From a virus, in IMG/VR virus record IMGVR_UViG_3300027712_000129, positions 1 through 26,317 of that record: a DNA stretch of 26,317 nt; one strand, 5' to 3'. The notes beneath the pieces were generated by a model, which worked only from the letters and a program-made list of their open reading frames with translations, made no database searches and was not told where the DNA came from. Both the position numbers and the translations under genes were made by a program. Positions 5,538 to 26,308 of this stretch are shown one piece after another. Numbering within the stretch: position 1 is the first letter of the stretch; each line of letters starts with the position of its first letter.

Positions 5538-5586
5538 CCTTGTCCCTTAGTTTATAATATAAAAAAAAGTGTAATATTCAATATAT
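5538..5586. promoter_or_regulatory. Divergent promoter region between tail and neck transcripts
   Basis: These 49 nt separate a minus-strand gene (start 5537) from a plus-strand gene (start 5587) and are almost entirely A/T. On the plus strand the GTGTAA element at 5569-5574 sits 12 nt before the ATG. On the minus strand a TATATTATAAA stretch precedes AAGGGACAAGG and the other ATG. Promoters in both directions are required by the gene arrangement. Exact start sites cannot be fixed by eye. Confidence 0.5.
5569..5574 (+). promoter_or_regulatory. GTGTAA element upstream of neck gene cluster
   Basis: GTGTAATATTCA lies 12 nt before ATG 5587 on the plus strand. It is the only plus-strand example among the late-type genes, which suggests the element is orientation-specific. 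Confidence 0.42.
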
Positions 5587-9270: not shown

Positions 9271-9276
9271 TTACAC
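9271..9276 (-). promoter_or_regulatory. GTGTAA element upstream of connector gene
   Basis: GTGTAAAAACAT on the minus strand ends 8 nt before ATG 9262 and overlaps the last bases before the upstream gene's stop. Confidence 0.4.
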
Positions 9277-13198: not shown

Positions 13199-13953
13199 TA
13201 CTTTTTCATTTCCTGATCAAGCGGCTTCTGGGGCTTTTTATCGTCTTTTGTTAAATTTCTTGTTGGTTGACTGGACGCTTTAGTATTCTCGCTATCGTTC
13301 TTTTTTTGAACCTGCTCCTCTTCGTCCTCTACATCTTTTGCGCTTTTGGCTTTTGACTTATGCGTTGCACAGCTAGGATCTTTGCAGGTGTTTGTTTTTT
13401 CTCCGTTTTGATTATCCTGATTATCTTTTGCTTTTTTAGAAGCAAGATCGTCTTGATCTTCATCTTGGGGTTGATTTTTGGAGAGTTTTGCAGCGGCTTT
13501 TTCTTTCTTTTCCATTTCAGGAGATTCAGCTTTTTCTTCTTCTTCAGTTTCACCAGGTTCTGGCTTTTCCTTCATGTCTTTAGCTTTTGCTTTGCTCTCG
13601 TCTTTCTCTTCCTTATCATCTTTGCCGCCTTTACCAGCCTTTTTATTCTTCAGAATAACTTTCTGAATAGCTGGTGGAAGCTTTTTCTGAGCAGGGCTTA
13701 ATTCTCCATTGTCACTAAAGGCCGCAGCTTCAGAAATGACTGCTTCATGCTTTTCATATTGATCGCAAGCTTCTTTAATCGCTTCTTCGCGAGAAGCAGT
13801 GGATTCATTAAGCGAAAGATAGTCGGCTACAAATTCTTGATATGCCAAACAAGCTTCGTCTGATCTCTTCGATAAAGAGACTTCTACTTCTCCTTTTTTA
13901 TATTCCATTTTTTTGATAAATGGCACTTTTATGTCTTTCGGATTAATTTTCAT
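13198..13953 (-). CDS. Highly charged prohead core-like protein (251 aa)
   Basis: The first 85 residues are an ordinary mixed helical segment (KVPFIKKMEYKKGEVEVSL). The remainder is a low-complexity Lys/Glu/Asp tract with KGGKDDKEEKDESKAKAKD-like runs and one short Cys pair (TCKDPSC). It overlaps the portal gene end by 11 nt and the protease start by one base. T4-like phages encode small, highly charged prohead core proteins (gp67, gp68) between portal and protease, and this gene has the same position and composition. The role is inferred from those two features, not from sequence similarity. Its low complexity means homology searches may give false matches. Confidence 0.72.
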   Translation of the reverse strand: MKINPKDIKVPFIKKMEYKKGEVEVSLSKRSDEACLAYQEFVADYLSLNESTASREEAIKEACDQYEKHEAVISEAAAFSDNGELSPAQKKLPPAIQKVILKNKKAGKGGKDDKEEKDESKAKAKDMKEKPEPGETEEEEKAESPEMEKKEKAAAKLSKNQPQDEDQDDLASKKAKDNQDNQNGEKTNTCKDPSCATHKSKAKSAKDVEDEEEQVQKKNDSENTKASSQPTRNLTKDDKKPQKPLDQEMKK

Positions 13954-16021
13954 TTAGTTGTTGTGAGTGATAGAGAATTGCAGCGGAGTAATCGTCTTCA
14001 AGTTCATAATCCGAAGCCATAGATAGAATTTCTGGCATTGTTACCAGTTCAGCAATCTGATCGAAATTATTTACACAAGAAAGAGCTTCTGCTTCCCAAG
14101 TTTTTATTTCTTTAGAAACAACAATTGCTTCGCAGAGTTTTTCAACCATTACTTCTTGATTTGGATTTAATTTATCCACTTTGAACTTCTCTTTAAGGTC
14201 GCTTTCTACAGAAGCTCTGATTGTCTCAATAGTTCTAATGATGTTTTGAATATTCTTCATTGAAACATTAGCCCTTGTTACTGGTATTCCCGTGGTGCCT
14301 TCTGGTCGTCCTGCTGCTTTTTGTGTTTTGTTGAGAATTGGATGAGGATTGCCTTTCTTAATTGGTAATTCCATTTTCTTATTAACAACATCTGCTTTTA
14401 GAGAAGTTTTGGGAGCTGGAGGCATTGCTGGAGAAATCATAGGAACTCCTCCGACAAGTGGATTATAATACCCCTCATCTCTTTCTTTAATAAACTTTTC
14501 TTGTGCTGGGGCGAGATCTTCTGCCTCTGGGAATTGTCCAGTATGAAACATATCCATTCCTTGCTGTGGAGTGAGAACGCCTAGCTCCATCAAGCGTGTA
14601 GTAACGCGCATGAGTTGTGTTTGATCTCTTACGTCAATATCTCTAAACTTTGCCACTGGATAAGATTTCATGCCAAGATTTTTGGCAATTCTCTTAATTT
14701 CAATTTGCAGGAAATCGTTTAAGAATGCGCATCTCGCCTCTTTCAATCTATCAACAAATATTTGAGCCTTAATTTCTGTGGCGCTATACTTCTCTTCTCC
14801 AACGACTATATTCTGAAGACCTTGTTTAATGTCTTCATTGAGGGTGGCATACTTTTCAGCACCCAAAACTTTATTAAGGTCTGGAAGCACGAAACTAGCC
14901 TTGGTGGTATAATCGGCAACTAGAACTCTGCCGACACTCTCATTCTTAAAAAGTGTTTGCATCGCTCGCACATTATTTTGATTAATGCCTCCCTTATCAG
15001 GATCTGTTCCCATTGTGATCAATAGAATGACGTTTTCAACGGTTCTAGTAATGGCTTGGTCCATTTTCTTTAGCTCCATCTTGGCGTTGATGTCTTCAAG
15101 CACTGGATATCCAAATGGAACCGCAAATGGTTCATAGTCTTGTTTTTTGTAAAATGAGAATGTGAGTTTCTGTGGGTCTAAGCGAATTTTTAATCCATTT
15201 TTATAGTACGCTCCCTTTTCGATGTCTTCTCTCACTCTTGGTGGAAGAGCTTTAAAGATTTCTCTATCATCATCTGTCAAAGGATTCTGCAATCTAGCGA
15301 ATTCATATTGAGAGAGAATTTTTTCATATACACCCGTAGCAAAACTAGAACTTCTTTTGGCAACGACATCAAAAGGATTAAGCATAATATATTTGAGCGG
15401 AATAGCATTCGTCGCTTTTTCCACATTGCCAAACTGCCTAAGAAGGTTTGCGAAATTCTGCAAATCAAATTTTCCATCAATTCTGTACAAGAAAACATTT
15501 CCACTTCTGTAATATTCTCTAAAATACTGATCCTTTAAATTCCACAGTCTTACTTTTTTAAACCATTCTTCAAAGAAGTCTCTGCTTTTCTTCGTTCCAC
15601 CTTCAAGGTATATTTCAGTATTGGCAAACTCTGACATAATGTCGATAGCATTTCTAAAAATGGAAACATTTGCATAGGCTTTTTGACATAGTTCAATTGC
15701 TTCTCTAACATTTACTCCGTCAATGGCGTAGCTATAAGGAAGAAGACCTTCTCTAATACTACTAAACCTATCAATCGTTCTTTGAAATGCCGCTCTATTC
15801 TTTCTGGCTCCAACTTTTTGGAAAGTAGCTTCACGCGCATAACCAGAATCACTTCCAGCATCACTTCCAGAAGCAACATAAAAAGGTTCTCCAGACAATT
15901 CTGGTTCGCAAGATGCCGATGACTGCATCATCATATGTGGCATTTCATTTGACGCTTGGGGCTGTCCAAATTTATCCCAGTATTGGGACTTTTTATTGTA
16001 TTGTCTCTTGGTTGAATCCAT
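13943..16021 (-). CDS. Portal protein (692 aa)
   Basis: The protein forms the dodecameric ring at the head vertex through which DNA enters and leaves. Residues 1-75 are polar and Met/Ser-rich and probably flexible. From about 95 the pattern is portal-like: YSYAIDGVNVREAIELCQKA, then VSIFRNAIDIMSEFANTEIYLEGG and a long helical region with REYYRSGNVFLYRIDGKF. Later there are segments around LMELGVLTPQQGMDMFHTGQFPE, a common portal C-terminal pattern. Length is within the range of large portals. It follows the large terminase by 44 nt and precedes the core, protease and capsid genes, the standard order. A GTGTAA element lies 9 nt upstream of the start, which has no Shine-Dalgarno sequence. Confidence 0.85.
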   Translation of the reverse strand: MDSTKRQYNKKSQYWDKFGQPQASNEMPHMMMQSSASCEPELSGEPFYVASGSDAGSDSGYAREATFQKVGARKNRAAFQRTIDRFSSIREGLLPYSYAIDGVNVREAIELCQKAYANVSIFRNAIDIMSEFANTEIYLEGGTKKSRDFFEEWFKKVRLWNLKDQYFREYYRSGNVFLYRIDGKFDLQNFANLLRQFGNVEKATNAIPLKYIMLNPFDVVAKRSSSFATGVYEKILSQYEFARLQNPLTDDDREIFKALPPRVREDIEKGAYYKNGLKIRLDPQKLTFSFYKKQDYEPFAVPFGYPVLEDINAKMELKKMDQAITRTVENVILLITMGTDPDKGGINQNNVRAMQTLFKNESVGRVLVADYTTKASFVLPDLNKVLGAEKYATLNEDIKQGLQNIVVGEEKYSATEIKAQIFVDRLKEARCAFLNDFLQIEIKRIAKNLGMKSYPVAKFRDIDVRDQTQLMRVTTRLMELGVLTPQQGMDMFHTGQFPEAEDLAPAQEKFIKERDEGYYNPLVGGVPMISPAMPPAPKTSLKADVVNKKMELPIKKGNPHPILNKTQKAAGRPEGTTGIPVTRANVSMKNIQNIIRTIETIRASVESDLKEKFKVDKLNPNQEVMVEKLCEAIVVSKEIKTWEAEALSCVNNFDQIAELVTMPEILSMASDYELEDDYSAAILYHSQQLNEN

Positions 16022-16030
16022 TTGCTTATA

Positions 16031-16036
16031 TTACAC
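16031..16036 (-). promoter_or_regulatory. GTGTAA element upstream of portal gene
   Basis: GTGTAATATAAG on the minus strand ends 9 nt before ATG 16021 in the short gap after the terminase gene. Two AAAGTTACT repeats lie just upstream. Confidence 0.42.
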
Positions 16037-16046
16037 CAAAAGTCTC

Positions 16047-16067
16047 AAAGTTACTTTTAAAGTTACT
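16047..16067. repeat. Two direct repeats of AAAGTTACT between terminase and portal genes
   Basis: AAAGTTACT occurs at 16047-16055 and again at 16059-16067, 12 nt apart, in the short gap between the terminase stop and the portal start. On the minus strand it lies upstream of the GTGTAA element at 16031-16036. It could be an activator site for the portal promoter, or chance in A/T-rich DNA. Confidence 0.4.
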
Positions 16068-19000
16068 ATAAAAACATTGGAGTAAAAGTTTCTTGGATAT
16101 TTTCGACTGGGGTAGCCATCATATCATAATAAACATGCATCATCCAGTTGCCTAAAACCAAGGCAGAATAAGAGTCTTTTCGAGCTTTGTCCGCTCCTCT
16201 TTGTTTTTTTAGATTATGGGGCAAATCAAAACTTTGAGAGCCTTGCGCCGTTGTTGTCACTTGGATAAGTGCGCATTGAACTTTGATCAGGTCAATCATG
16301 TCTTTCTGATGTTCTATAAAATCAATCTGCTTTCCTGCCGCTTCTTTCTCTTCGTCAGCTCTTGAATATTTTAAATTCATTATGGGGATATTGGCGGATC
16401 TTTGTCTAGAAAAACTATCATCAATTGCCATGCCTGCAAACCAAATTCTTCTATGGTCAAATGAAGCCTGCAACAATTCGTTTGCAGATCTAATCCAAAA
16501 AGAACTGGGTTTTCTAAGATGGACTATTCTTTTGGACGTTACGTTGTATTGGTTTCTTGCATCTCTTATGGCTGCTTGATATTCAACGGTATTGTCAAAA
16601 TCGGCATCAAAACACTCTAGTTTTAAATTCTGCTTTTTAAAAGCTTCACTTTCATTGCAGGCATTTAAGAATTGAACGCCACCATTGTAGTCTCCAACTA
16701 TCATTACAACTTTAAAATAAGTTAAAAGATAAAGAATATACTCAATATGCTTTTTTAGATTTGTGCCAGACATCGCATATGAATGCACAACAGTTCCAGT
16801 TTGTTTTCCAGGTTGAAGTTTTATTAGATTCATTGCGAAATCATCGGAGCCTTCGCTTTCGGACCAAGAAGGATCGAAAGACAAGATGTATTCAGCCGTC
16901 GGATCTCCTATCACTTCTACCGACTGCCCTTCGCCATCTACAATTGTACACAATGCCATTTTGCTTACTTTGAAAAATCCAGAACTATCATCTGTAAATA
17001 AAGATCCGAACTCTCTTCCAAATTGAGACTCACTCATGGTAGCCTTTGATTGATCCAATAGGTTTTGATCATAAAGCTGTTTAGGCGCACAATCGTAGCT
17101 TAGATGCATAATCACCCGATGGGCGTTGTCTTGCTTATCTTTGGTCAATATAGAATTCTCATATTGCTGATACAGTTTATACAAGTATTCGAATTTGTAA
17201 CTCGCTGAAGATAAGCCAATAATTTTATTGTGTGGCCATTCATGACGTTCATCTTCTGTCATTTGGCCCTCATTTATTAGTTGCGTTTCTAAATCATAAA
17301 TCTTCTGTCTTTCTGTTGGATTTTCGACAACAGCCAAGAAGGGCAAGATGACTTCGTTAAGAATCTTTTCTGGCATGAGCAAAAGCTCGTCAATAATCAT
17401 TCTTTGAAATCGAAATCCGCGAAGTTTTTCTCCATCACCCAATGGCAAAGCAGTGATTTTACTTCTACCAATTTCCATGACCCACTCGTCATTACTTTTA
17501 GAGACTTTGGTTATGCATTGCGATAGATATGCGGCTTTGGGGCTTCTTGATATGTCTTCTATCTTTCTGAAGATCATTTTTGAATTGTGGTTAATAAATC
17601 CATTGCCTACATAGCAGTGTTCATTATCGACTTCTATATCTACGGATTCTATAGACTCTTGAAATTCTATATTAGAGACCTTATCCCAAAAAATACCATT
17701 AGAAATCAATCCTTCGTATAGTTCTACATCAGACTCTTCTATTCTATCTTTATATTCATTTAAAATTCGCGATAATCTTTTTTTGCCCAAGTTATTTGCC
17801 AAAGTTTCTCTAAATGTATATTTGGAAGATAAGTATAATCCAGATCCATAAATAGGATCACAATTTCCTCTTATGCTTTCAGGAATAGATTTTTTTAAAG
17901 AATCTGATTTTCTTGTGAGTCTAAATCCTATTTGTTTTTCAAATTTTGAAATATTAGACTCTCCCATTATTCTTAGTTTGCAAGACTCTTTTCCAAAAGT
18001 TTTGACTCCACAAATTAACATTTCTCCCCGAGCCTTTTCTTTTTGAATTTTAGAAATGATTCCAAACTTTAATAAACACAACTGGACTTGCCTGATAATT
18101 GATATAGAAGAGGAGGCTAATTCCACTCTATCCTTTGCCACACTACCGTCAGCGTCAAATAGACCTTGTAAAAATGCTTTTAGATTCTCTTTGGTAGACC
18201 TTAATGCCTTATCTGGCACTTGTTTGAATGTCGCCGTTTTTTTCTCTTCTTCAAAGAAATTGTCGATAAATTCTTTATTGTTTATTCTTACTTGAGAACA
18301 TCTTCCATCTTTTTTTGTATGGATTGGATTTAAACCTTTTCTTTCACAAAAAGAATCTACAAAATCTAGAGTTTCTTGATCTGCCGAAGTGATTATAGCA
18401 TAATTGTATTTTTTGCAGAAACAGCCATCGCCCACCATCGAGCCATGAAAATAAGCATCATCTTTATCTAAGTAGTCATCTTTATCGGGGAAAATATCAC
18501 ACCCACTATGTATGGCAACCAAATCATCCAAGGTCATTTCTTCTGCTTTTTTCCATTCTTGAGATTGGGATTTTTGATTAAAGGTTAACAGCTTATGGCC
18601 CATCTTTCCCTCAATTAAATATCCTGATTTTGATGTTATCGAAAATCCATCGGCCAAATTATTTGTCCATTTGTTTTTGATTTGATTTGCGCCGTTAATA
18701 GAATAAACCAAATCTCCAATTTGAGCGTCTTTGATTTTAATAAGGCCCTTATCGGTTGGAATCAATGTATCAGGATGAGCGCACTGCCTGAATGACTTAC
18801 TAAGGATTCCTATATGAACTCCTTGATTAAGTATGGCATCTAGAATAGCAAATACAGCGGTGGAAAACGAATTGTGATTTATAATGCCATCCGATACATA
18901 ACAGTGTTCATTTTCTACGTGAATATCTACTGTCACAGCTTCTCCAATTTCTGTTGCAACAACTTTTTCAAAAGAAAAATCTTCTCTCATTAAGCAAGAT

Positions 19001-20457
19001 AGTTTATCAAATATCTCACCATGTACTCTTCCCGTATTTAGAATTTCTCCCAATAATCTTCTGCTAGTGTTCTTTCTAAAATTTAATTTATATTTGCTGT
19101 CTTTTTTGTCTACAATTGATTTCTTTCCAAAGTATTTCTCCAAACACTCTCCAACATACGGGACATAATCACAGAAAGATTCATTTTGAATCAATTGATC
19201 GTTTAACGCTTCTAGCAAATCGTTTTTTCTTTTTATTTTAAATCCTATTTGATCTCTAAATATTCTTGCGTCTTTTTGATTGCAACAAATTAAGCTCCAC
19301 GCTTTTTTGCATTCGTAAATTTTACCATTTGGGAAGTTCGACTTTCCACCTTTAAAACAAACGCTCTTTCTAAAAATAACCCCTAATTGTAAGCATAAAT
19401 TTTGGATCTGCTTCAACAGCATTTCGCTAGTGGATGTAAATCCGATTTTCACATTAGTTCCTTTTTTCTCTCTTTGTTGGAGGGAGCAATATCCGTCTGT
19501 ATCAAATAGCCCCATGAGAAGATTTTTGATATTTTCTTTTGAGTTGTTTGTCAATATTTCTGGTATTACTTTTTGATAAGCTTTCGATTCGTCGAATCCT
19601 AGAAATCGCAAAAAAGACACTAATTCTTTAGAATAAATCCTTAGATCTTGACATTCATTATCTTTGTTAGATATAGATAAATGAAGTCCTATCTTTTTGG
19701 AAAATTGATCTAAGAAATCTTTTGTTTCTTGATCTTGGGAAGTTATTGATACCCCCATCGGACTTTTTAATATACGCCCGCCTCCAATCAAGAGACCGAA
19801 AAAATAATACCAGTCAGAAATGTCTTTTTCGTTTTTAATAAGAGATTTTGGCTTATTGAAATTTTTGACATCATTAACGAATTCAAATCCATTGAAGATA
19901 TTTCTTTGCTTCAAATTTATGTCGCATCCTCTTTTTACAACCACATAGTCTCCATTGACTATATCTTTATTGTGTTTCCACTCTAGTTGCAGGTCTTTAT
20001 TTAAAACCATAATTTTATGGTAGTCCAAGCCCTCGGATTCAAAACCAGAATTTGTCGTTATTTTATATGTCGCATCTATGGGGTTAATTGTTTTTTCTAA
20101 GATCTTATTAAAAGAGTCTTTGCTTTGCACCTTGTCTCCGATCTTTGTATCTCCTATTTTTATCAAACCTCTATCTGTCCAAATTAAAGAGTCGTAATGA
20201 AGACACTTGCTAAGTCCTCGGCTCCACACGCCCAAGAAGTAATCAGTTTCCATCATTGCTTTAATCGCCATGTGCTGGAAGGGGAAAAGTGATACCCCCG
20301 AAATCAACTCAGAGGCGAAGGAAGGGTTTTCGCGTAGGAACTTGTACAAAAGGATCTTGGCCTTTTTTTCGTCAATATATCCCTCCGTAGAAAGGATCTC
20401 CTCATTGACGTTCTTAAATTTTTTCCTTAATTTTTGATTTCCTTCTTCCCAACTCAT
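16066..20457 (-). CDS. terL: Terminase large subunit interrupted by two inteins (1463 aa precursor)
   Basis: The precursor is 1463 aa; removing two inteins (445 and 400 aa) leaves a 618-aa protein, a normal terminase length. Exteins are residues 1-84, 530-558 and 959-1463. Joined, they give WSRGLSKSFSTA, a Walker A-like loop, then Walker B RMIIDEL (D1023, E1024). The C-terminal RNase H-like nuclease shows D1195 in SFDPSW, D1256 in VGDYNGG and a late KDSYSALVLG (D1428). The enzyme pumps DNA into the head at the portal and cuts the concatemer. It begins one base after the stop of the nuclease gene (TAATATG) and precedes the portal. Both inteins must splice out for activity, because the first splits Walker A. 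There are no frameshifts. Confidence 0.93.
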   Translation of the reverse strand: MSWEEGNQKLRKKFKNVNEEILSTEGYIDEKKAKILLYKFLRENPSFASELISGVSLFPFQHMAIKAMMETDYFLGVWSRGLSKCLHYDSLIWTDRGLIKIGDTKIGDKVQSKDSFNKILEKTINPIDATYKITTNSGFESEGLDYHKIMVLNKDLQLEWKHNKDIVNGDYVVVKRGCDINLKQRNIFNGFEFVNDVKNFNKPKSLIKNEKDISDWYYFFGLLIGGGRILKSPMGVSITSQDQETKDFLDQFSKKIGLHLSISNKDNECQDLRIYSKELVSFLRFLGFDESKAYQKVIPEILTNNSKENIKNLLMGLFDTDGYCSLQQREKKGTNVKIGFTSTSEMLLKQIQNLCLQLGVIFRKSVCFKGGKSNFPNGKIYECKKAWSLICCNQKDARIFRDQIGFKIKRKNDLLEALNDQLIQNESFCDYVPYVGECLEKYFGKKSIVDKKDSKYKLNFRKNTSRRLLGEILNTGRVHGEIFDKLSCLMREDFSFEKVVATEIGEAVTVDIHVENEHCYVSDGIINHNSFSTAVFAILDAILNQGVHIGILSKSFRQCAHPDTLIPTDKGLIKIKDAQIGDLVYSINGANQIKNKWTNNLADGFSITSKSGYLIEGKMGHKLLTFNQKSQSQEWKKAEEMTLDDLVAIHSGCDIFPDKDDYLDKDDAYFHGSMVGDGCFCKKYNYAIITSADQETLDFVDSFCERKGLNPIHTKKDGRCSQVRINNKEFIDNFFEEEKKTATFKQVPDKALRSTKENLKAFLQGLFDADGSVAKDRVELASSSISIIRQVQLCLLKFGIISKIQKEKARGEMLICGVKTFGKESCKLRIMGESNISKFEKQIGFRLTRKSDSLKKSIPESIRGNCDPIYGSGLYLSSKYTFRETLANNLGKKRLSRILNEYKDRIEESDVELYEGLISNGIFWDKVSNIEFQESIESVDIEVDNEHCYVGNGFINHNSKMIFRKIEDISRSPKAAYLSQCITKVSKSNDEWVMEIGRSKITALPLGDGEKLRGFRFQRMIIDELLLMPEKILNEVILPFLAVVENPTERQKIYDLETQLINEGQMTEDERHEWPHNKIIGLSSASYKFEYLYKLYQQYENSILTKDKQDNAHRVIMHLSYDCAPKQLYDQNLLDQSKATMSESQFGREFGSLFTDDSSGFFKVSKMALCTIVDGEGQSVEVIGDPTAEYILSFDPSWSESEGSDDFAMNLIKLQPGKQTGTVVHSYAMSGTNLKKHIEYILYLLTYFKVVMIVGDYNGGVQFLNACNESEAFKKQNLKLECFDADFDNTVEYQAAIRDARNQYNVTSKRIVHLRKPSSFWIRSANELLQASFDHRRIWFAGMAIDDSFSRQRSANIPIMNLKYSRADEEKEAAGKQIDFIEHQKDMIDLIKVQCALIQVTTTAQGSQSFDLPHNLKKQRGADKARKDSYSALVLGNWMMHVYYDMMATPVENIQETFTPMFL
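17584..18783 (-). other. Intein 2 in terminase, with intact LAGLIDADG endonuclease motifs
   Basis: The 400-residue intein runs from Cys559 to Asn958. It starts CAHPDTLIPTDKG and ends DNEHCYVGNG then INHN, with Ser959 as the next extein residue. It splits SFRQ from SKMIFRKIED, a conserved-looking stretch of the ATPase only 29 extein residues after the first insertion. Both endonuclease blocks look complete: HGSMVGDGCF (671-680) and FLQGLFDADGSV (762-773). It resembles intein 1 in the splicing blocks (DxLIxTDxGLIKI, NEHCYV) and in a late QIGF(K/R) segment, so the two are probably related. It is likely the more mobile of the pair. Confidence 0.93.
18871..20205 (-). other. Intein 1 in terminase, with degenerate LAGLIDADG endonuclease domain
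   Basis: The 445-residue intein runs from Cys85 to Asn529. The N-terminal splicing block is CLHYDSLIWTDRG, and the C-terminal end is VENEHCYVSDG then INHN, followed by Ser as the first extein residue. These are the expected splice residues. The insertion lies between Lys84 and the following Ser in the Walker A loop. The endonuclease part has two LAGLIDADG-type blocks: FGLLIGGGRI (residues about 220-229), where the usual acidic residue is Gly, and LLMGLFDTDGYC (313-324), which is intact. The missing acidic residue suggests impaired DNA cutting while splicing is kept. The block-B His is present (DYHK), but the Thr usual three residues before it is absent. Confidence 0.93.
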
Positions 20458-21389: not shown

Positions 21390-22445
21390 TTAAATGACAT
21401 CATCCATTGAAAGGCCAAGAATACGAGCTTTCCAAGCGTCCATGCCTTCTAAGCGATGAGCTTCTTCTCTCACTAGTTTCTTTTGCATCTCTGCAATCTT
21501 AACCATATTCGCTCGTTCTTCTTCGTCTTGAAAGTACTGAACCAAAGCAAGCAACGAAGCATTTTCTTTATGCTTGTTTTTCATTCTTTCAGAACGGTCT
21601 CCTTGCAACTTTTTTGTGAGGGTTTCAATTCGCCCTTCACACTGATGATATTCAGTACTTTTGGCCTTGATTATTTCGGCCAATCTTACGCTCATTTCTT
21701 CTTGATCATTTGCTATGTCAAAAATGTCATTGAGCTTGTTGAGATGTTTGCTGATCACTTCAATGTTAATGATTTCTTTGCAAACATTCATATAAAGATT
21801 TAACTCATCTGACGTAAGATCTGGCTTGTCCCAAGTCAAGCGCACAAATTCTTGTTCAAATAGCTCTCTATTTTCTTTAGAGGTGTAGTTGTTGACAATC
21901 ATTAAAAATCGCGAATTGTTCAGATTAACACCTAGTCGGTCTACGCATATTTTGTGCTGTCTATTAATTTTATCTTCAATCAGCTCGTTGCCCGTCGCGT
22001 CATTTATTTTTTTAATGATTCGGCTGGTAGACTTTGGAGCCATGTAGTTGCTCAAGGCAACATCCACATCTTGCGAAGGAACATAGTCTGGATTTGTTTC
22101 GGCAATGTGTGCAAATACAGCCCGCTGCTGTATAGATAGGGGCTTAACGTCCATATCTGGAAACAATATCTCCGCGATTTTTAATGACGAAAGACCTTTG
22201 TTGGTGTGGCTAATGATTTGGTCTTTTTGTTCTTGAGTAAATTCTATGCCTTCTTGCTTTAGTTTGCGGGTTGTTTTAAAAGACAAGTTGGTGGAAATCA
22301 TATAAGAGCGAACAAGTCGGCCTTGTTTGCTGCGACCGTCAATATCTTTATTGTCAAAGACTTGCCGTACGATTTCATTGAGATCGCTGGTTCTGCTATA
22401 GCACTCTTTGACAGCTTCTTTTTGTTCATCTGTAAGCTCTTTCAT
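21390..22445 (-). CDS. Hypothetical DNA-binding protein, candidate small terminase (351 aa)
   Basis: No family is recognised with certainty. The N-terminus (LTDEQKEAVKECYSRTSDLNEIVRQVF) and residues about 68-95 (FTQEQKDQIISHTNKGLSSLKIAEILF) each look like helix-turn-helix DNA-binding segments. Residues about 230-330 are charged and helical, likely coiled coil (HQCEGRIETLTKKLQGD). A DNA-binding front plus coiled-coil oligomerisation is the usual architecture of terminase small subunits, and the large subunit lies two genes downstream, so that role is plausible. It is longer than most small subunits. Its start overlaps the sigma-like gene's stop (ATGA), so the two are translationally coupled. 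A regulator of late transcription is the main alternative. Confidence 0.7.
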   Translation of the reverse strand: MKELTDEQKEAVKECYSRTSDLNEIVRQVFDNKDIDGRSKQGRLVRSYMISTNLSFKTTRKLKQEGIEFTQEQKDQIISHTNKGLSSLKIAEILFPDMDVKPLSIQQRAVFAHIAETNPDYVPSQDVDVALSNYMAPKSTSRIIKKINDATGNELIEDKINRQHKICVDRLGVNLNNSRFLMIVNNYTSKENRELFEQEFVRLTWDKPDLTSDELNLYMNVCKEIINIEVISKHLNKLNDIFDIANDQEEMSVRLAEIIKAKSTEYHQCEGRIETLTKKLQGDRSERMKNKHKENASLLALVQYFQDEEERANMVKIAEMQKKLVREEAHRLEGMDAWKARILGLSMDDVI

Positions 22446-23131
22446 AATACTATGTCGTGTTCACTCATTAATTGAATGGCTTTTTGTTTTAGCATTTTTT
22501 TGAGGTTTTTTATTTGCTTGTATCCAGCTTTTCTGTTCTTTTCGGTAGTTTTGTAGCCCATTAGTTTTGCTACCTCCTCTTCGCTTTTGTCGTCAAAAAA
22601 CAACATGATGTAGACCTTGTAGTGGATCTCTGACAAATTGAGTTTTAATAATTTGTTGAGTTTATTGGTGGCTCCCTCGAAATCTATTGTGTGTTCTTGG
22701 TGGTGATCAACTTCTTGGGTATGATTCTCTATGGAAAGCGGCAACTTGATACCATATCCAGCCCGCTTTTGTTTTGCCCATTTTGCATACAAATCGCACG
22801 TTGTGTTTTGTGTGCCAGATCTGGTAAATGAGCATTGGTCTTCTCCCATGTTAAACTCGCAAGACATACACGGCTTCACATAGTTTGTGTAGTTATTTCT
22901 TATTATGTTTTTGATTTGGTTCGAAGATACTTGCGCGACCCAAGGTTCAAGTGGTTGTGTCTGGTCCCACAAATGCCATTTGTTAAAGATGTGCAGTTTA
23001 ACAACCTGCGCGACATCTTCAAAATCAAACCAGTTGATAGCTTTCAGTCTCCATTTTCTATGGAACTTGTTCACTACCTTATCTATGATATGGTAGCACT
23101 CCTCATACGTTTTGGGATTACTTTCCTCCAC
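22442..23131 (-). CDS. Sigma-70-like (ECF-type) transcription factor with Cys-rich insert
   Basis: The protein has a region 2-like core (WFDFEDVAQVVKLHIF, then WVAQVSSNQIKNIIRNN) and a region 4-like end (LSEIHYKVYIMLFFDDKSEEEVAKL, then a basic helix QIKNLKKMLKQKA), the two parts needed to bind a promoter and core polymerase. Between them is a Cys cluster (C-x2-C-x8-C-x11-C, beginning KPCMSC) that could hold a metal. No ATG precedes the core; I place the start at GTG 23131, which overlaps the upstream gene by 14 nt, though a TTG at 23227 is possible. Phage sigma factors such as T4 gp55 switch on late genes. Its place at the head of the packaging and head genes fits that role. The promoter it uses may be the GTGTAA element. 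Confidence 0.76.
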   Translation of the reverse strand: MEESNPKTYEECYHIIDKVVNKFHRKWRLKAINWFDFEDVAQVVKLHIFNKWHLWDQTQPLEPWVAQVSSNQIKNIIRNNYTNYVKPCMSCEFNMGEDQCSFTRSGTQNTTCDLYAKWAKQKRAGYGIKLPLSIENHTQEVDHHQEHTIDFEGATNKLNKLLKLNLSEIHYKVYIMLFFDDKSEEEVAKLMGYKTTEKNRKAGYKQIKNLKKMLKQKAIQLMSEHDIVL

Positions 23132-23501
23132 TGCGCGGTTTATCGTTAATAAAATCGCCAATGCTCTGAGAGTCTCTTCTTCTTGTAGAAGATGATGGCG
23201 GCGTGTTATCTGCAAATAAAGATCCAAACGTAAATGAAGATGCAGAATCGGTTTCTACTTCTATTTGTATTTTATTGATTTGCGGCACTCTATCTACGCT
23301 GGTGTTTTCGTTGTCATCATAATCGTCATAATCTTCATCCTCTTCAATAGGATCGCTATATGATGCTTTTGCTGGCTTGGCTTGTGGAGCGGCAATTTTA
23401 GAAGTTGCTCCTAGAGTTTGCCCACAACCAGAACAGAAATTTGGTTTGGCAAAGTTGAAAGTATGCTTCATGCCACAATTCGGACAGAACGATGTATTCA
23501 T
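23118..23501 (-). CDS. Zinc-ribbon protein with acidic tail (127 aa)
   Basis: Two Cys pairs near the N-terminus (CPNCG at 6-10 and CSGCG at 23-27) form a zinc ribbon. An Ala/Pro/Lys linker follows, then an acidic run (EEDEDYDDYDDNE, about 53-65) and a Ser/Arg-rich end. Zinc ribbons commonly bind nucleic acid or RNA polymerase. The stop lies within the start of the sigma-like gene, so the two are co-expressed, and a cofactor for late transcription is a reasonable guess. The start ATG follows a TAATAC sequence by only a few bases, with TTGAAA further upstream, so the transcript may be nearly leaderless or the promoter may lie further back. Confidence 0.78.
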   Translation of the reverse strand: MNTSFCPNCGMKHTFNFAKPNFCSGCGQTLGATSKIAAPQAKPAKASYSDPIEEDEDYDDYDDNENTSVDRVPQINKIQIEVETDSASSFTFGSLFADNTPPSSSTRRRDSQSIGDFINDKPRSGGK

Positions 23502-23688: not shown

Positions 23689-24555
23689 TCATCTAATTAC
23701 TTCTTTTAGTGTCACTTCGCCATCTAGTATGCCACCATCTGAGATTGTTAATTTTTGATCTGTTATCTTTGCGGCAGAAGAGATTGAGAGAGTCATTAAA
23801 CTGCTCACTTTATTATCGCCCATCAAGTTGATGGAAAATGCTTCGCCCGTGCCATACTGATCAATTAACTTGCCCACGTTGGTTGATTTGATAGACATCT
23901 CTTTTGTAACACGATCTAGAAACATCTTTGACGCAAATTGTTGGCCAATTTCATAAACAGGAGTGCGGGCACATGAGACTTTGTATGTGATTTGTTGTTT
24001 AGATGGATCTGATAGATTATCGCTAGACCCTCCATTGACTATGGCATTGTGGCCGTGAATCAAACCACTGGTAAAATTGTATGCCGTCAAATTATTATTG
24101 ACAAGACTACTTGTAGAGCCTGTGAGTTTTTCTCCAGTGGGCATGTGTAAACAAGTAAAATCAGCAGTCAACATCGCTGGCGTAAAAGGTTGAACAGTAA
24201 CTGATGCGGTATTCAAATAGCAGTCAGGACCACCACCATCACCAAACAAATTGTCGCCTACACTTATATAACACGGCTCATCTCCCGTGAGAGATGTTAA
24301 TAAGAAGCGAGCATAAGAAGAGCCTGTATCATTCAATGCAAAATCTACAGGAAAAGTCATGGATATGTTTGCGCCAATGCCTCCTCCAATTCGCAATCCA
24401 TTCGGTTGAATCGCGCCAAGCAGTCTTGATTCTTCGAGTTTGTTTTGATATTGGATGGATACATTTGTGGCTGGTATAGCGACTCCCGCACCTACGAGGT
24501 TGCCGTCTTTAGTATATATTGATACTGGTAGGATTTGATATGTAATTGTAGGCAT
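23689..24555 (-). CDS. Putative tail-tube-like structural protein (288 aa)
   Basis: This is a beta-rich virion-type protein with few charged residues. Segments such as NKLEESRLLGAIQPNG, ANISMTFPVDF and LNTASVTVQPFTPAMLTADFTC, and an ending pattern DQKLTISDGGILDGEVTLKEV, resemble phage tail tube or related sheet-rich structural subunits. The major tail protein at 7535 has a similar end (strand pair, then a Gly-rich strand), so a distant paralogue is possible. The exact role is not certain. It is the first gene of the leftward late block, starting at the divergent control region. A GTGTAA element ends 8 nt before its ATG, which has no Shine-Dalgarno sequence. It ends before a 187-nt gap containing an inverted repeat. 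Confidence 0.68.
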   Translation of the reverse strand: MPTITYQILPVSIYTKDGNLVGAGVAIPATNVSIQYQNKLEESRLLGAIQPNGLRIGGGIGANISMTFPVDFALNDTGSSYARFLLTSLTGDEPCYISVGDNLFGDGGGPDCYLNTASVTVQPFTPAMLTADFTCLHMPTGEKLTGSTSSLVNNNLTAYNFTSGLIHGHNAIVNGGSSDNLSDPSKQQITYKVSCARTPVYEIGQQFASKMFLDRVTKEMSIKSTNVGKLIDQYGTGEAFSINLMGDNKVSSLMTLSISSAAKITDQKLTISDGGILDGEVTLKEVIR

Positions 24556-24563
24556 CTATGAGA

Positions 24564-24569
24564 TTACAC
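24564..24569 (-). promoter_or_regulatory. GTGTAA element upstream of the first late gene
   Basis: GTGTAATCTCAT on the minus strand ends 8 nt before ATG 24555, at the head of the leftward late block. Confidence 0.42.
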
Positions 24570-24774: not shown

Positions 24775-24848
24775 GGTGGGGCGGGGTATTTGTCAACTTC
24801 AATCGTTCAGAAATCGAAAAATAAATTTCACAATAAATGCAGAAAGCT

Positions 24849-24911
24849 CTTGCGCGAAAGCGTAAAATGTTCCATTCTTTCCTTGTCAGCAACCCCCACC
24901 CCACCCCTACC
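24849..24911 (+). repeat. Small-gene leader, copy 1
   Basis: This copy contains TTGCGC-GAAA-GCGTAA, a possible hairpin with a GAAA loop, then AATGTTCCATTCTTTCC, TTGTCAGCAA and a (CCCCA)n tract that ends directly at the ATG. There is no Shine-Dalgarno sequence. It shares nearly all of this with copies 2 and 4. Confidence 0.85.
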
Positions 24912-25073
24912 ATGAATGCAATAACTGAAATCAAAGCCGCCTCCTTTGCCCACGCCTGCAAGCTGCAAAGCGCGGGAGTCATCACGTCCGCTGAATGGAA
25001 AATGTACGTTGACGCTTTGCATGACTGGCTTGAGATAAAAATATCTGAAAAAAAGTCTTGCGCGAAAGCGTAA
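24912..25073 (+). CDS. Small hypothetical early-type protein (53 aa)
   Basis: This small protein (MNAITEIKAASFAHACKLQS, then AEWKMYVDALHDWLEIKISE) is probably all-helical and soluble. The chosen ATG directly follows the conserved C-rich leader; an in-frame ATG 75 nt further up would put the whole leader inside the protein, which is unlikely. The last codons run into the next leader copy, whose GCGTAA supplies the stop, so the repeat has overrun the original gene end (an ATATCTGAA preceding both copies 2 and 4 suggests an ancestral stop there). No function is recognised. Confidence 0.65.
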   Translation: MNAITEIKAASFAHACKLQSAGVITSAEWKMYVDALHDWLEIKISEKKSCAKA

Positions 25074-25124
25074 AATGATTCATTCTCTCCCTGTCAGCAA
25101 CCCCCACCCCACCCCACCCCTACC
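25057..25124 (+). repeat. Small-gene leader, copy 2
   Basis: This copy has the same order of elements as copy 1: TTGCGC-GAAA-GCGTAA, AATGATTCATTCTCTCC, CTGTCAGCAA and a longer C-rich tract with four C runs before TACC and the ATG. Its complement has four runs of G separated by single T, a perfect G-quadruplex pattern. Confidence 0.85.
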
Positions 25125-25352
25125 ATGACCATTGCAATAACGGAAGTTAAGAACCTTGAGTTTGTCGAAGTTTTAGAAGTACTTGAACGTGGTCAATGGG
25201 CTGCTTGGCTTGTCACTTTCGAGCATGACGGCAAGCTTTGCGAGGGAGAGCTAGAAGCTTGCTGCAATGAGCCTGATGATTTTCACCATGACATGATCGG
25301 AAATTGCGAGCTTAGTTTACCCGTTGTCCCGCTTGCCCATCGCGATTATTGA
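25125..25352 (+). CDS. Small acidic hypothetical protein (75 aa)
   Basis: The protein (MTIAITEVKNLEFVEVLEVL, then QWAAWLVTFEHDGKLCEGEL) is acidic, probably alpha/beta, with a later Cys-rich acidic stretch (EACCNEPDDFHHD). It starts directly after leader copy 2. It has no similarity by eye to the other small ORFs apart from the ITE near its start, shared with the preceding gene (AITEIK/AITEVK). Soluble acidic phage proteins sometimes mimic DNA, but nothing here proves that. Confidence 0.7.
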   Translation: MTIAITEVKNLEFVEVLEVLERGQWAAWLVTFEHDGKLCEGELEACCNEPDDFHHDMIGNCELSLPVVPLAHRDY

Positions 25353-25360
25353 AAAAAAAC

Positions 25361-25420
25361 CTTGCGTAAAAACCCTTTTTCCTTCATTCTCTCCCTGTCA
25401 GCAATACCTCACCTCACCTC
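25361..25420 (+). repeat. Small-gene leader, copy 3 (diverged)
   Basis: This copy keeps CTTGCG at the start and the central TTCATTCTCTCCCTGTCAGC, but has lost the GAAA hairpin, and the C-rich tract is replaced by three ACCTC units before ATG. The pentamer period is the same, so the tract probably expands by units of five. Confidence 0.8.
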
Positions 25421-25666
25421 ATGAAACAAATCATTCACACTGCCGCCAAAGACTTCACCTTGACTCTCCTCAATTCCGAGATTCAATTCAGCCATGAGAA
25501 GCATCTGCCAAAAAAATGGTTCACGTTAGACTTCAAAAAAGGTCAAGACGTGCGCGTATCATGGTGCAAGGTGGTTCAACGTGATGGCCAGCTTTTGCTA
25601 GTATGCAGGGGCGGAGTTGCGCAGAGCTTCCCCTTTCCTCTTGACTGTCTAAATGAAGATATCTGA
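25421..25666 (+). CDS. Small hypothetical protein (81 aa)
   Basis: The protein (MKQIIHTAAKDFTLTLLNSE) is probably a small alternating strand/loop fold, basic in the middle (KHLPKKWFTLDFKKGQDVRVSW), with a central WCKVVQRDGQLLLVCRGG motif. It starts directly after leader copy 3. No family is recognised. The short LDFKKG...VRVSWCKV...LLLVCRG alternation resembles a small beta barrel, but this is by eye only. Confidence 0.7.
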   Translation: MKQIIHTAAKDFTLTLLNSEIQFSHEKHLPKKWFTLDFKKGQDVRVSWCKVVQRDGQLLLVCRGGVAQSFPFPLDCLNEDI

Positions 25667-25674
25667 AGAAAAGG

Positions 25675-25733
25675 CTTGCAGGAAAGCGTAAAATGATTCA
25701 TCCTCTCCTTGTCAGCAACCCCCACCCCACCCC
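25675..25733 (+). repeat. Small-gene leader, copy 4
   Basis: This copy matches copies 1 and 2 through GGAAAGCGTAAAATGATTCA, the central CTCTCCTTGTCAGCAA and the C-rich tract ending in CCCC directly before ATG. The left hairpin arm carries two changes, so the stem is weaker. The preceding ATATCTGAAG is shared with copy 2. Confidence 0.85.
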
Positions 25734-25904
25734 ATGTTCATTCAATTTCTTCCTACTATGCCACTAGGCACCCTAACAAACCACGGCGTTTTCGTTAGGG
25801 TTGACCCTAACGGTTACTGCTACTTCGAGAAAACCAAGCGCGACGGTTCTATTGTCCCTAGCTGGTGCGGCTCGAAAGCGTTGCATTGCGTTCAGCTTCG
25901 ATAG
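25734..25904 (+). CDS. Small hypothetical protein (56 aa)
   Basis: This 56-codon gene begins directly after leader copy 4 (MFIQFLPTMPLGTLTNHG) and has an aromatic, Gly-containing middle (VRVDPNGYCYFEKTKRDGS) and a Trp-Cys-rich end. The pattern GVFVRVDPNGYCYFEKTKRDG suggests a small beta-hairpin or sheet. It is short, but the leader supports the start and the frame closes with TAG. Within it lies an 18-bp palindrome (GTTAGGGTTGACCCTAAC, 25794-25811). Confidence 0.65.
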   Translation: MFIQFLPTMPLGTLTNHGVFVRVDPNGYCYFEKTKRDGSIVPSWCGSKALHCVQLR

Positions 25905-25925: not shown

Positions 25926-25945
25926 GGGGGCGCGAAAGCGCCCCC
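25926..25945 (+). other. Perfect GC-rich hairpin with GAAA loop
   Basis: GGGGGCGC pairs with GCGCCCCC around a GAAA tetraloop. No T tract follows, so it is not a classical terminator. The GAAA loop and the CGC/GCG base of the stem match the hairpin in leader copies 1 and 2. It may stabilise or attenuate the transcript between two small genes. Confidence 0.7.
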
Positions 25946-25965
25946 GCTTCCCCCTTCACGCTCCA

Positions 25966-25992
25966 ATGAAACCAATCTACTTGCAGCCATGA
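25966..25992 (+). CDS. 8-codon leader peptide candidate
   Basis: ATG at 25966 opens an 8-residue frame (MKPIYLQP) whose TGA overlaps the ATG of the next small gene (ATGA). It lies just after the GC-rich hairpin. Such overlap implies translational coupling, but a frame this short could be chance. Confidence 0.35.
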   Translation: MKPIYLQP

Positions 25993-26087
25993 TTGCACGC
26001 CTCACTTTGTGCCTACTGCTTGCCCTTGCTGGTGCCGCCCGCTCATGTTCCCCTTCAACACCTAATCAAATACACCTAACAAAATGA
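25989..26087 (+). CDS. Tiny membrane or secreted protein candidate (32 aa)
   Basis: The product MIARLTLCLLLALAGAARSC continues for 12 further polar residues. A basic N-terminus, a hydrophobic core and a small-residue/Cys region give the look of a signal peptide or single membrane anchor; AARSC is only a weak lipobox. It overlaps the next gene in ATGA and may itself be coupled to the 8-codon frame upstream. Small phage proteins of this kind include lysis and superinfection-exclusion peptides, but no function can be assigned. Confidence 0.5.
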   Translation: MIARLTLCLLLALAGAARSCSPSTPNQIHLTK

Positions 26088-26308
26088 GAAACCGAGCAAT
26101 CAAACTAGTCAACAAAGCCGTCAAAGAGCTAACGGGGGGCGCGGTTGACATGAGCGACCTAGCAGACACGGCCAGCTTGTGCGCTGGGTTGGACGAGCTG
26201 CAAGAGCTGTTAGAGCTGGCCGATGAATTCACCCCCATGCAAGAACTGTTAGACGTAGCACAGACAATAGCCTACGACTTGTTAGAAGAAGAGGGTTTTC
26301 CAGTCTAA
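26084..26308 (+). CDS. Small acidic helical protein (74 aa)
   Basis: The protein (MRNRAIKLVNKAVKELTGG) has a short basic start and then two acidic leucine-rich helices (ELQELLELADEF and MQELLDVAQTIAYDLLEEE). It overlaps the preceding 32-aa gene by 4 nt, so it is translationally coupled. The fold suggests a small helical bundle. No family is recognised; acidic small early phage proteins are often inhibitors of host proteins, but this is only a guess. Confidence 0.68.
   Translation: MRNRAIKLVNKAVKELTGGAVDMSDLADTASLCAGLDELQELLELADEFTPMQELLDVAQTIAYDLLEEEGFPV

Follow-up and report, generated by a model that had tools for sequence, protein, structure and literature searches.

Start-associated elements repeated before small phage genes have been described in cluster K mycobacteriophages, in which the SAS, a 13-bp, Shine-Dalgarno (SD)-containing sequence (GGGATAGGAGCCC, ≤2 deviations), lies 3-9 nt before the start codon (PMC3203893). 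The ESAS of these phages are repeated, intergenic, located before non-structural genes of different families and usually near the start codon, and are marked by 17-bp inverted repeats that are imperfect and separated by a 4-14 bp spacer (PMC3203893, PMC11373665). In phage T4, the early (Pe) promoter class needs no viral factor, and the late (Pl) class, which has a novel -10 box, is read by the phage sigma gp55 (PMC6024815). Bacteroidota and some Verrucomicrobia are among the bacteria in which SD motifs are scarce (PMC10783764).

We analysed a 26,317-base stretch of DNA (the window), a phage fragment from an uncultured phage group, in which a first-pass annotation had described four copies of a common leader ahead of small genes. 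The copies are present on the + strand at 24827-24908, 25035-25116, 25339-25420 and 25653-25734, where, beyond the minus-strand genes, they open a module of small genes on the + strand, and each runs to an ATG (24912, 25125, 25421 and 25734). The repeated unit begins 5′ of 24849, within an A-rich stretch, and its core, TTGCG-N18-CATTCTNTCCNTGTCAGCAA, occurs at 24850, 25058 and 25362 with 0 mismatches and at 25676 with 2, with 0 matches in 100 shuffles. All four copies precede genes, copies lying elsewhere having been named at the outset as grounds for abandoning the idea, and the C-rich pentamers reported before the ATG are indeed seen, as ACCCC in copies 1, 2 and 4 and ACCTC in copy 3. Since the window is a fragment, further copies were sought only in relatives, and were found there, again ahead of small genes, which form a syntenic module. 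The predicted layout of the module is as follows.

24834-24878 (+): promoter copy 1; A-rich upstream, -35 TTGCGC (24850-24855), 17-bp spacer (24856-24872) with GAAA hairpin, -10 CATTCT (24873-24878); 23.8 bits (relatives-only matrix)
24879-24911 (+): discriminator and 5′UTR of copy 1; TTCCTT, predicted +1 at G 24885, 27-nt UTR GTCAGCAACCCCCACCCCACCCCTACC, no SD, unstructured by folding
24912-25073 (+): small gene 1, ORF of 53 aa; no Pfam family at default threshold
25045-25086 (+): promoter copy 2; A-tract, -35 TTGCGC (25058-25063), spacer (25064-25080), -10 CATTCT (25081-25086); 31.7 bits
25087-25124 (+): discriminator and 5′UTR of copy 2; CTCCCT, predicted +1 at G 25093, 32-nt UTR with four C-tracts (ACCCC repeats)
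25125-25352 (+): small gene 2, ORF of 75 aa
25346-25390 (+): promoter copy 3; A-tract, -35 TTGCGT (25362-25367), spacer (25368-25384) of other sequence and hairpin-free, -10 CATTCT (25385-25390); 39.3 bits, best match to the relatives' matrix
25391-25420 (+): discriminator and 5′UTR of copy 3; CTCCCT, predicted +1 at G 25397, 24-nt UTR with ACCTC repeats
25421-25666 (+): small gene 3, ORF of 81 aa
25660-25704 (+): promoter copy 4; -35 TTGCAG (25676-25681), spacer (25682-25698), -10 CATCCT (25699-25704); 17.4 bits
25705-25733 (+): discriminator and 5′UTR of copy 4; CTCCTT, predicted +1 at G 25711, 23-nt UTR
25734-25904 (+): small gene 4, ORF of 56 aa; weak relatives in kin, E about 1e-4
26084-26308 (+): next module gene, 74 aa; promoter copy not detectable, 71% identity to L105

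Position-by-position comparison of the copies showed that TTGC, the 17-bp distance, CAT[TC]CT, six pyrimidine-rich bases and GTCAGCAA are kept, while the spacer varies. Because the constant parts are kept while the spacer is free, and because copy 3, with its other spacer, is the best match to the relatives, we read these parts as -35/-10 promoter anatomy with a start at the G of GTCAGC. The full promoter would comprise phased, UP-element-like A-tracts, a CTTGCNN -35, exactly 17 bp, a YAYTCT -10, six pyrimidine-rich nt and a purine at +1. Assignment to the sigma70 type rests on general architecture, namely -35 and -10 elements 17 ± 1 bp apart (17 bp in all four copies) and a purine about 7 nt past the -10 hexamer (by sequence, A/G in 29 of 30 promoters). 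With +1 at the predicted position, the G of GTCAGCAA, most of the leader would be untranscribed promoter DNA and only its last 23-32 nt would be 5′UTR, so that the mRNA would open with an unstructured, C-rich, G-poor, SD-free sequence followed by AUG. The initial description of the leader as mainly a start-associated, translational element thus gives way, for most of its length, to a sigma70-type promoter.

We consider it very probable that the four leaders are copies of a strong sigma70-type promoter, one per small gene, that would be read early by the host and have been shuffled as cassettes. In this reading the phage sigma-like protein would then read the hexamer GTGTAA, and ribosomes would initiate on messages that are leaderless or lack an SD. 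The early timing is suggested by where the genes lie, by their strand and by the class of promoter; host RNA polymerase would most likely read these promoters at the start of infection, before the phage sigma-like protein is made. Coordinated early expression is the likely purpose of the repeated promoters, and the small genes may serve in host takeover.

The promoter signal recurs in relatives. In seven records of the group, which were assembled from fetched pieces, TTGC-N-YANTCT gave 39 sites at N=19 (the 17-bp spacer) versus 4-16 at each other distance from 10 to 30. A matrix built from 27 relatives' promoters, excluding the window, scored the window's four sites at 39, 32, 24 and 17 bits and its next best at 1.5; among 20 shuffled windows, 18 peaked at ≤5.1 bits and the other two at 13.5 and 15.3. 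Conservation is highest at -35/-10, and A-tracts centred near -42 and -51 are also conserved; the -10 is TACTCT in most relatives, with the CATTCT/CATCCT of the window less canonical. A blind search of 2.9 million viral contigs with the composite promoter pattern returned 22 stretches, which included the known G001 and G002 as well as the new records L105, L113 and L114, whose portal and/or sigma protein identified them as kin. A stricter pattern found 35 stretches at the right spacing versus 14 at a control spacing, and a sigma homologue was present in 12 of 13 tested records from it; being kin by the sigma-like gene, these make the promoter pattern usable as a search key. The promoter with GTCAGC was also observed in phage contigs of 53-62% GC (L099-L101, L103, L108-L110, L112, L115-L117, L084/L085), and the four high-GC carrier records tested (L117, L100, L085, L084) held no portal or sigma homologue. 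When genome contigs were scanned with the pattern, 3 matches were obtained against about 2 by chance, only L118 having a short ORF close behind, and these were treated as chance.

The nearest described case is the ESAS of cluster K mycobacteriophages (PMC3203893, PMC11373665), which the window element resembles in being repeated, intergenic, before non-structural genes of different families and usually near the start codon. The likeness to SAS/ESAS proposed at first pass is apt with respect to ESAS, because ESAS were later reported with putative SigA-like -35/-10 hexamers 17-18 bp apart (PMC11373665), a distance also found in the window copies. The hexamers themselves differ, and the window element is without the 17-bp inverted repeat, SAS or SD; inverted repeats of the ESAS kind are absent from the leaders, whose spacer stems are not above shuffles. 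Many copies in relatives are also predicted to give leaderless messages, and the hosts are, as far as known, not mycobacteria. The SAS half of the analogy falls away: the window shares with SAS (PMC3203893) a conserved sequence just before the ATG of several unrelated small genes, but its conserved part is a promoter. The 13-bp sequence had no match with up to 2 mismatches, matches at 3 mismatches were at chance level and outside the leaders, and SAS membership was rejected. The window element would work like an early-promoter array and falls outside SAS/ESAS.

What has been copied is the leader and not the gene, as first suggested, and once the leader with a few codons, because the downstream proteins have no convincing similarity to each other except those of copies 1 and 2. 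These two are alike over a stretch close to the N-terminus (ITE.K, 20 residues, 35%, E 0.03), with a matching 18-nt DNA repeat, an exception to the original statement that the downstream proteins are unrelated; the remaining pairs among the four showed no convincing similarity. No Pfam family matched any of the four proteins (53, 75, 81 and 56 aa) at the default threshold, and at E ≤ 1 there were only weak, sub-threshold matches. Small gene 1 ends within promoter 2, whose -35 and spacer supply its final codons and its stop (25058-25073, +), a promoter/coding overlap. Past gene 4 lies a strong hairpin, GGGGGCGC-GAAA-GCGCCCCC (25927-25948, +), which is terminator-like with no clear T-run and whose GAAA-loop stem resembles the spacer hairpins of the promoter copies. 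It is followed by a 32-aa lipoprotein-like ORF (MIARLTLCLLLALAGAARSC...; 25989-26087, +), the stop of which overlaps the ATG of the gene at 26084-26308 (ATGA), with possible translational coupling. Orthologues of the latter gene occur in related phages that the promoter pattern had retrieved, and in L105 and L138 they have promoter-like hexamers upstream. A degenerate fifth promoter before 26084 (TTGCCC at 26020) was unsupported by the matrix and lies inside the 32-aa ORF, and was rejected.

The related phages are aquatic and uncultured, with kin genomes of 35-43% GC. The 692-aa protein at 13943-16021 (-) was identified as the portal by distant relatives and has at least 159 relatives among viral contigs; compared with cultured phages, it gave 23-24% identity to Bacillus phages over half its length and one Microcystis phage segment, and no cultured relative. 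No match to the sigma-like protein was found in a search for cultured relatives, and a plasmid search for relatives returned a single weak Bacillus match. A 1463-aa helicase split by an intein with a LAGLIDADG homing endonuclease is encoded at 16066-20457 (-). The window-type promoter does not resemble the Bacteroidota type. A promoter signal of this kind is absent from Verrucomicrobia phage P8625; in 116 genomes from the phylum to which G023, titled a Chlamydiae MAG, belongs, the leaderless form was not clearly in excess; and nine kin records encode no phage bS21.

Two types of start are found behind the promoter in relatives. In the leaderless type, six nt separate TACTCT from ATG or GTG, as in TACTCT-ttgcgc-ATG; in the leadered type the same six nt are followed by GTCAAC/GTCAGC or a near variant and an A/C-rich sequence, 15-35 nt in total, and then ATG. 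The leaderless ATG and the leadered G share column 35 counted from TTGC, the column that is A/G in 29/30 promoters, and this common purine is strong evidence, at the level of sequence, for the predicted +1. As the leaderless ATG falls on the predicted +1 column, messages of the first type are predicted to be leaderless; about half of the relatives' sites have ATG or GTG at or ≤3 nt from it, and the window copies, with 23-32 nt UTRs, are not of this form. Leadered 5′UTRs (15-35 nt) are 52% C, 27% A, 12% T and 10% G; the C-rich tract of the window is a local version of a generally A/C-rich, G-poor 5′UTR, and folding of the window's four 5′UTRs as far as the ATG gave 0 kcal/mol. The absence of an SD from the leader, noted at first pass, was borne out in the window copies and more widely: before 267 longer ORFs of the seven records, SD-like tetramers were found at 0-10%, no commoner than at random places (4-14%). 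Host ribosomes would have to start on SD-less or leaderless messages, given the lack of SD across the phage group. In having 5′UTRs of <8 nt or free of SD these starts resemble leaderless/SD-scarce initiation (PMC10783764), but they occur here in phages and as two types, leaderless or with a C/A-rich leader, behind one promoter. This pairing offers a handle on phage translation initiation in hosts that ignore the SD. Three leaders of the form TAnAGTG-N6-GTCAGCA(A/C)C at the predicted +1 were also observed in L002 (3001-2980, 5637-5616 and 6367-6346, -), an unrelated, GC-rich, apparently actinobacterial phage with an 18-mer common to the window leaders, by convergence or chance; a pattern based on it gave 90 stretches versus 12 in a reversed control, which does not correct for codon bias, with several sites only in L002.

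Next to the module is a phage sigma-factor-like gene, and a second motif precedes longer genes.

22442-23227 (-): phage sigma-factor-like gene, adjoining the module; PHROG 1740 sigma factor, E 5.5e-9, with Pfam Sigma70_r2 below cut-off (weak call); found in kin
24556-24569 (-): late-type motif GTGTAA (hexamer 24564-24569), 8 nt before the ATG of a 288-aa gene (23689-24555)
16022-16036 (-): late-type motif GTGTAA (hexamer 16031-16036), 9 nt before the ATG of the portal gene (13943-16021)

Upstream of the 267 longer genes we counted 44 GTGTAA hexamers against 3.1 expected, and about 36 of these genes have one 7-12 nt, mostly 8-10 nt, before the ATG, with no obvious -35. Further copies lie 8-12 nt before start codons at 9271-9276 (-) and 5569-5574 (+). 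From its sequence and position, GTGTAA is a candidate late promoter of the phage group, which the phage sigma-like protein may read ahead of longer genes, much as gp55 reads the late promoters of T4 (PMC6024815). The presence of one class with complete -35/-10 elements and another with GTGTAA, next to a phage sigma-like gene, recalls T4 Pe and Pl (PMC6024815), although the hexamers here are CTTGC/TACTCT and GTGTAA, no SD lies downstream and the order of use is inferred. With respect to a T4-like late system, GTGTAA is enriched 7-12 nt before longer genes, and the call of a phage sigma is weak. Together the two motifs could provide a legible regulatory code for this widespread group of uncultured phages, in which a promoter per small gene flags putative takeover genes and the second motif flags longer genes.

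That the phage sigma-like protein (22442-23227), and not host sigma70, reads the four promoters, making the module middle or late, would fit the position of its gene, which adjoins the module in the window and in G001, and its presence in the 12 of 13 promoter-carrying records. We nevertheless think this unlikely. Complete -35, -10 and A-tract elements, as in this promoter, are typical of recognition by a housekeeping sigma; GTGTAA, which has no obvious -35 and marks longer genes, would suit a small late sigma better as a target; and the promoter also occurs in contigs, all fragments, without a detected sigma homologue (L084/L085, the L099 family, L152). Distinctly improbable, in our judgement, is a mainly translational element in which GTCAGCAA and the C-rich tract recruit ribosomes without SD pairing, in the manner of a start-associated sequence. 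Most leadered relatives do keep GTCARC at +1, and the UTR is strongly C/A-rich despite genomes of low GC and free of SD, as this would lead one to expect, but about half of the same promoters are leaderless, the tract varies (ACCCC, ACCTC, ACC, CAA) and conservation peaks in the hexamers. The leader may have a translational role as a secondary function, not as its principal one. Such a role enters a broader scheme that we hold only tentatively, in which one promoter type serves two SD-free starts, one leaderless and one with GTCARC at +1 and a ribosome-recruiting C/A-rich tract, its cassettes being shuffled among host-takeover genes before a late switch to the GTGTAA class.

The GAAA-loop hairpin that the first-pass annotation had placed in the leader falls in the spacer between -35 and -10, 5′ of the predicted +1, and so would not be transcribed. 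Copies 1 and 2 have the whole hairpin (-7.2 kcal/mol), copy 4 retains little of it (-1.0) and copy 3 lacks it, and it was rejected as a conserved element. A regulatory RNA or DNA element in the spacer (GCGC-GAAA-GCGT), such as an attenuator or operator, is accordingly very hard to credit: some relatives' spacers also contain inverted repeats, but stem length in 30 spacers does not exceed that in shuffled ones (2.77 vs 2.61; 72 of 500 shuffles as high). We attach equally little probability to the C-rich tract being a Rho-utilisation (rut) site, or a G-quadruplex via its G-rich complement, that gates transcription. Copy 2 does have four C-tracts (TGGGGTGGGGTGGGGTGGGGG on the opposite strand), but copies 1 and 4 have three, copy 3 has none and none occur in the relatives' leaders listed; a typical rut site is also longer than the window leaders. 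With the tract not conserved, a G-quadruplex, i-motif or rut role was rejected.

Returning to the sigma70-type promoters, we found that identical or nearly identical spacers recur ahead of different genes. In G001, G002, G014 and L146, the spacer allele gggttcgatccccgtgc or a close variant precedes five or more different genes, and aatccgttcgcccgagt, exact or nearly so, is seen again in G001, G012 and G014; the genes behind common spacers were judged unrelated by eye, from their first codons. Because such spacers precede unrelated genes, and given the copies in the window, promoter-leader cassettes appear to have been duplicated and shuffled among small genes. Within the related module of G001 (L091), at about 16440-19330, intergenic repeats GTAACTCGTTGA...TCAACGAGTTAC / AAGTCCTTGATAATCAA were also observed between the small genes.
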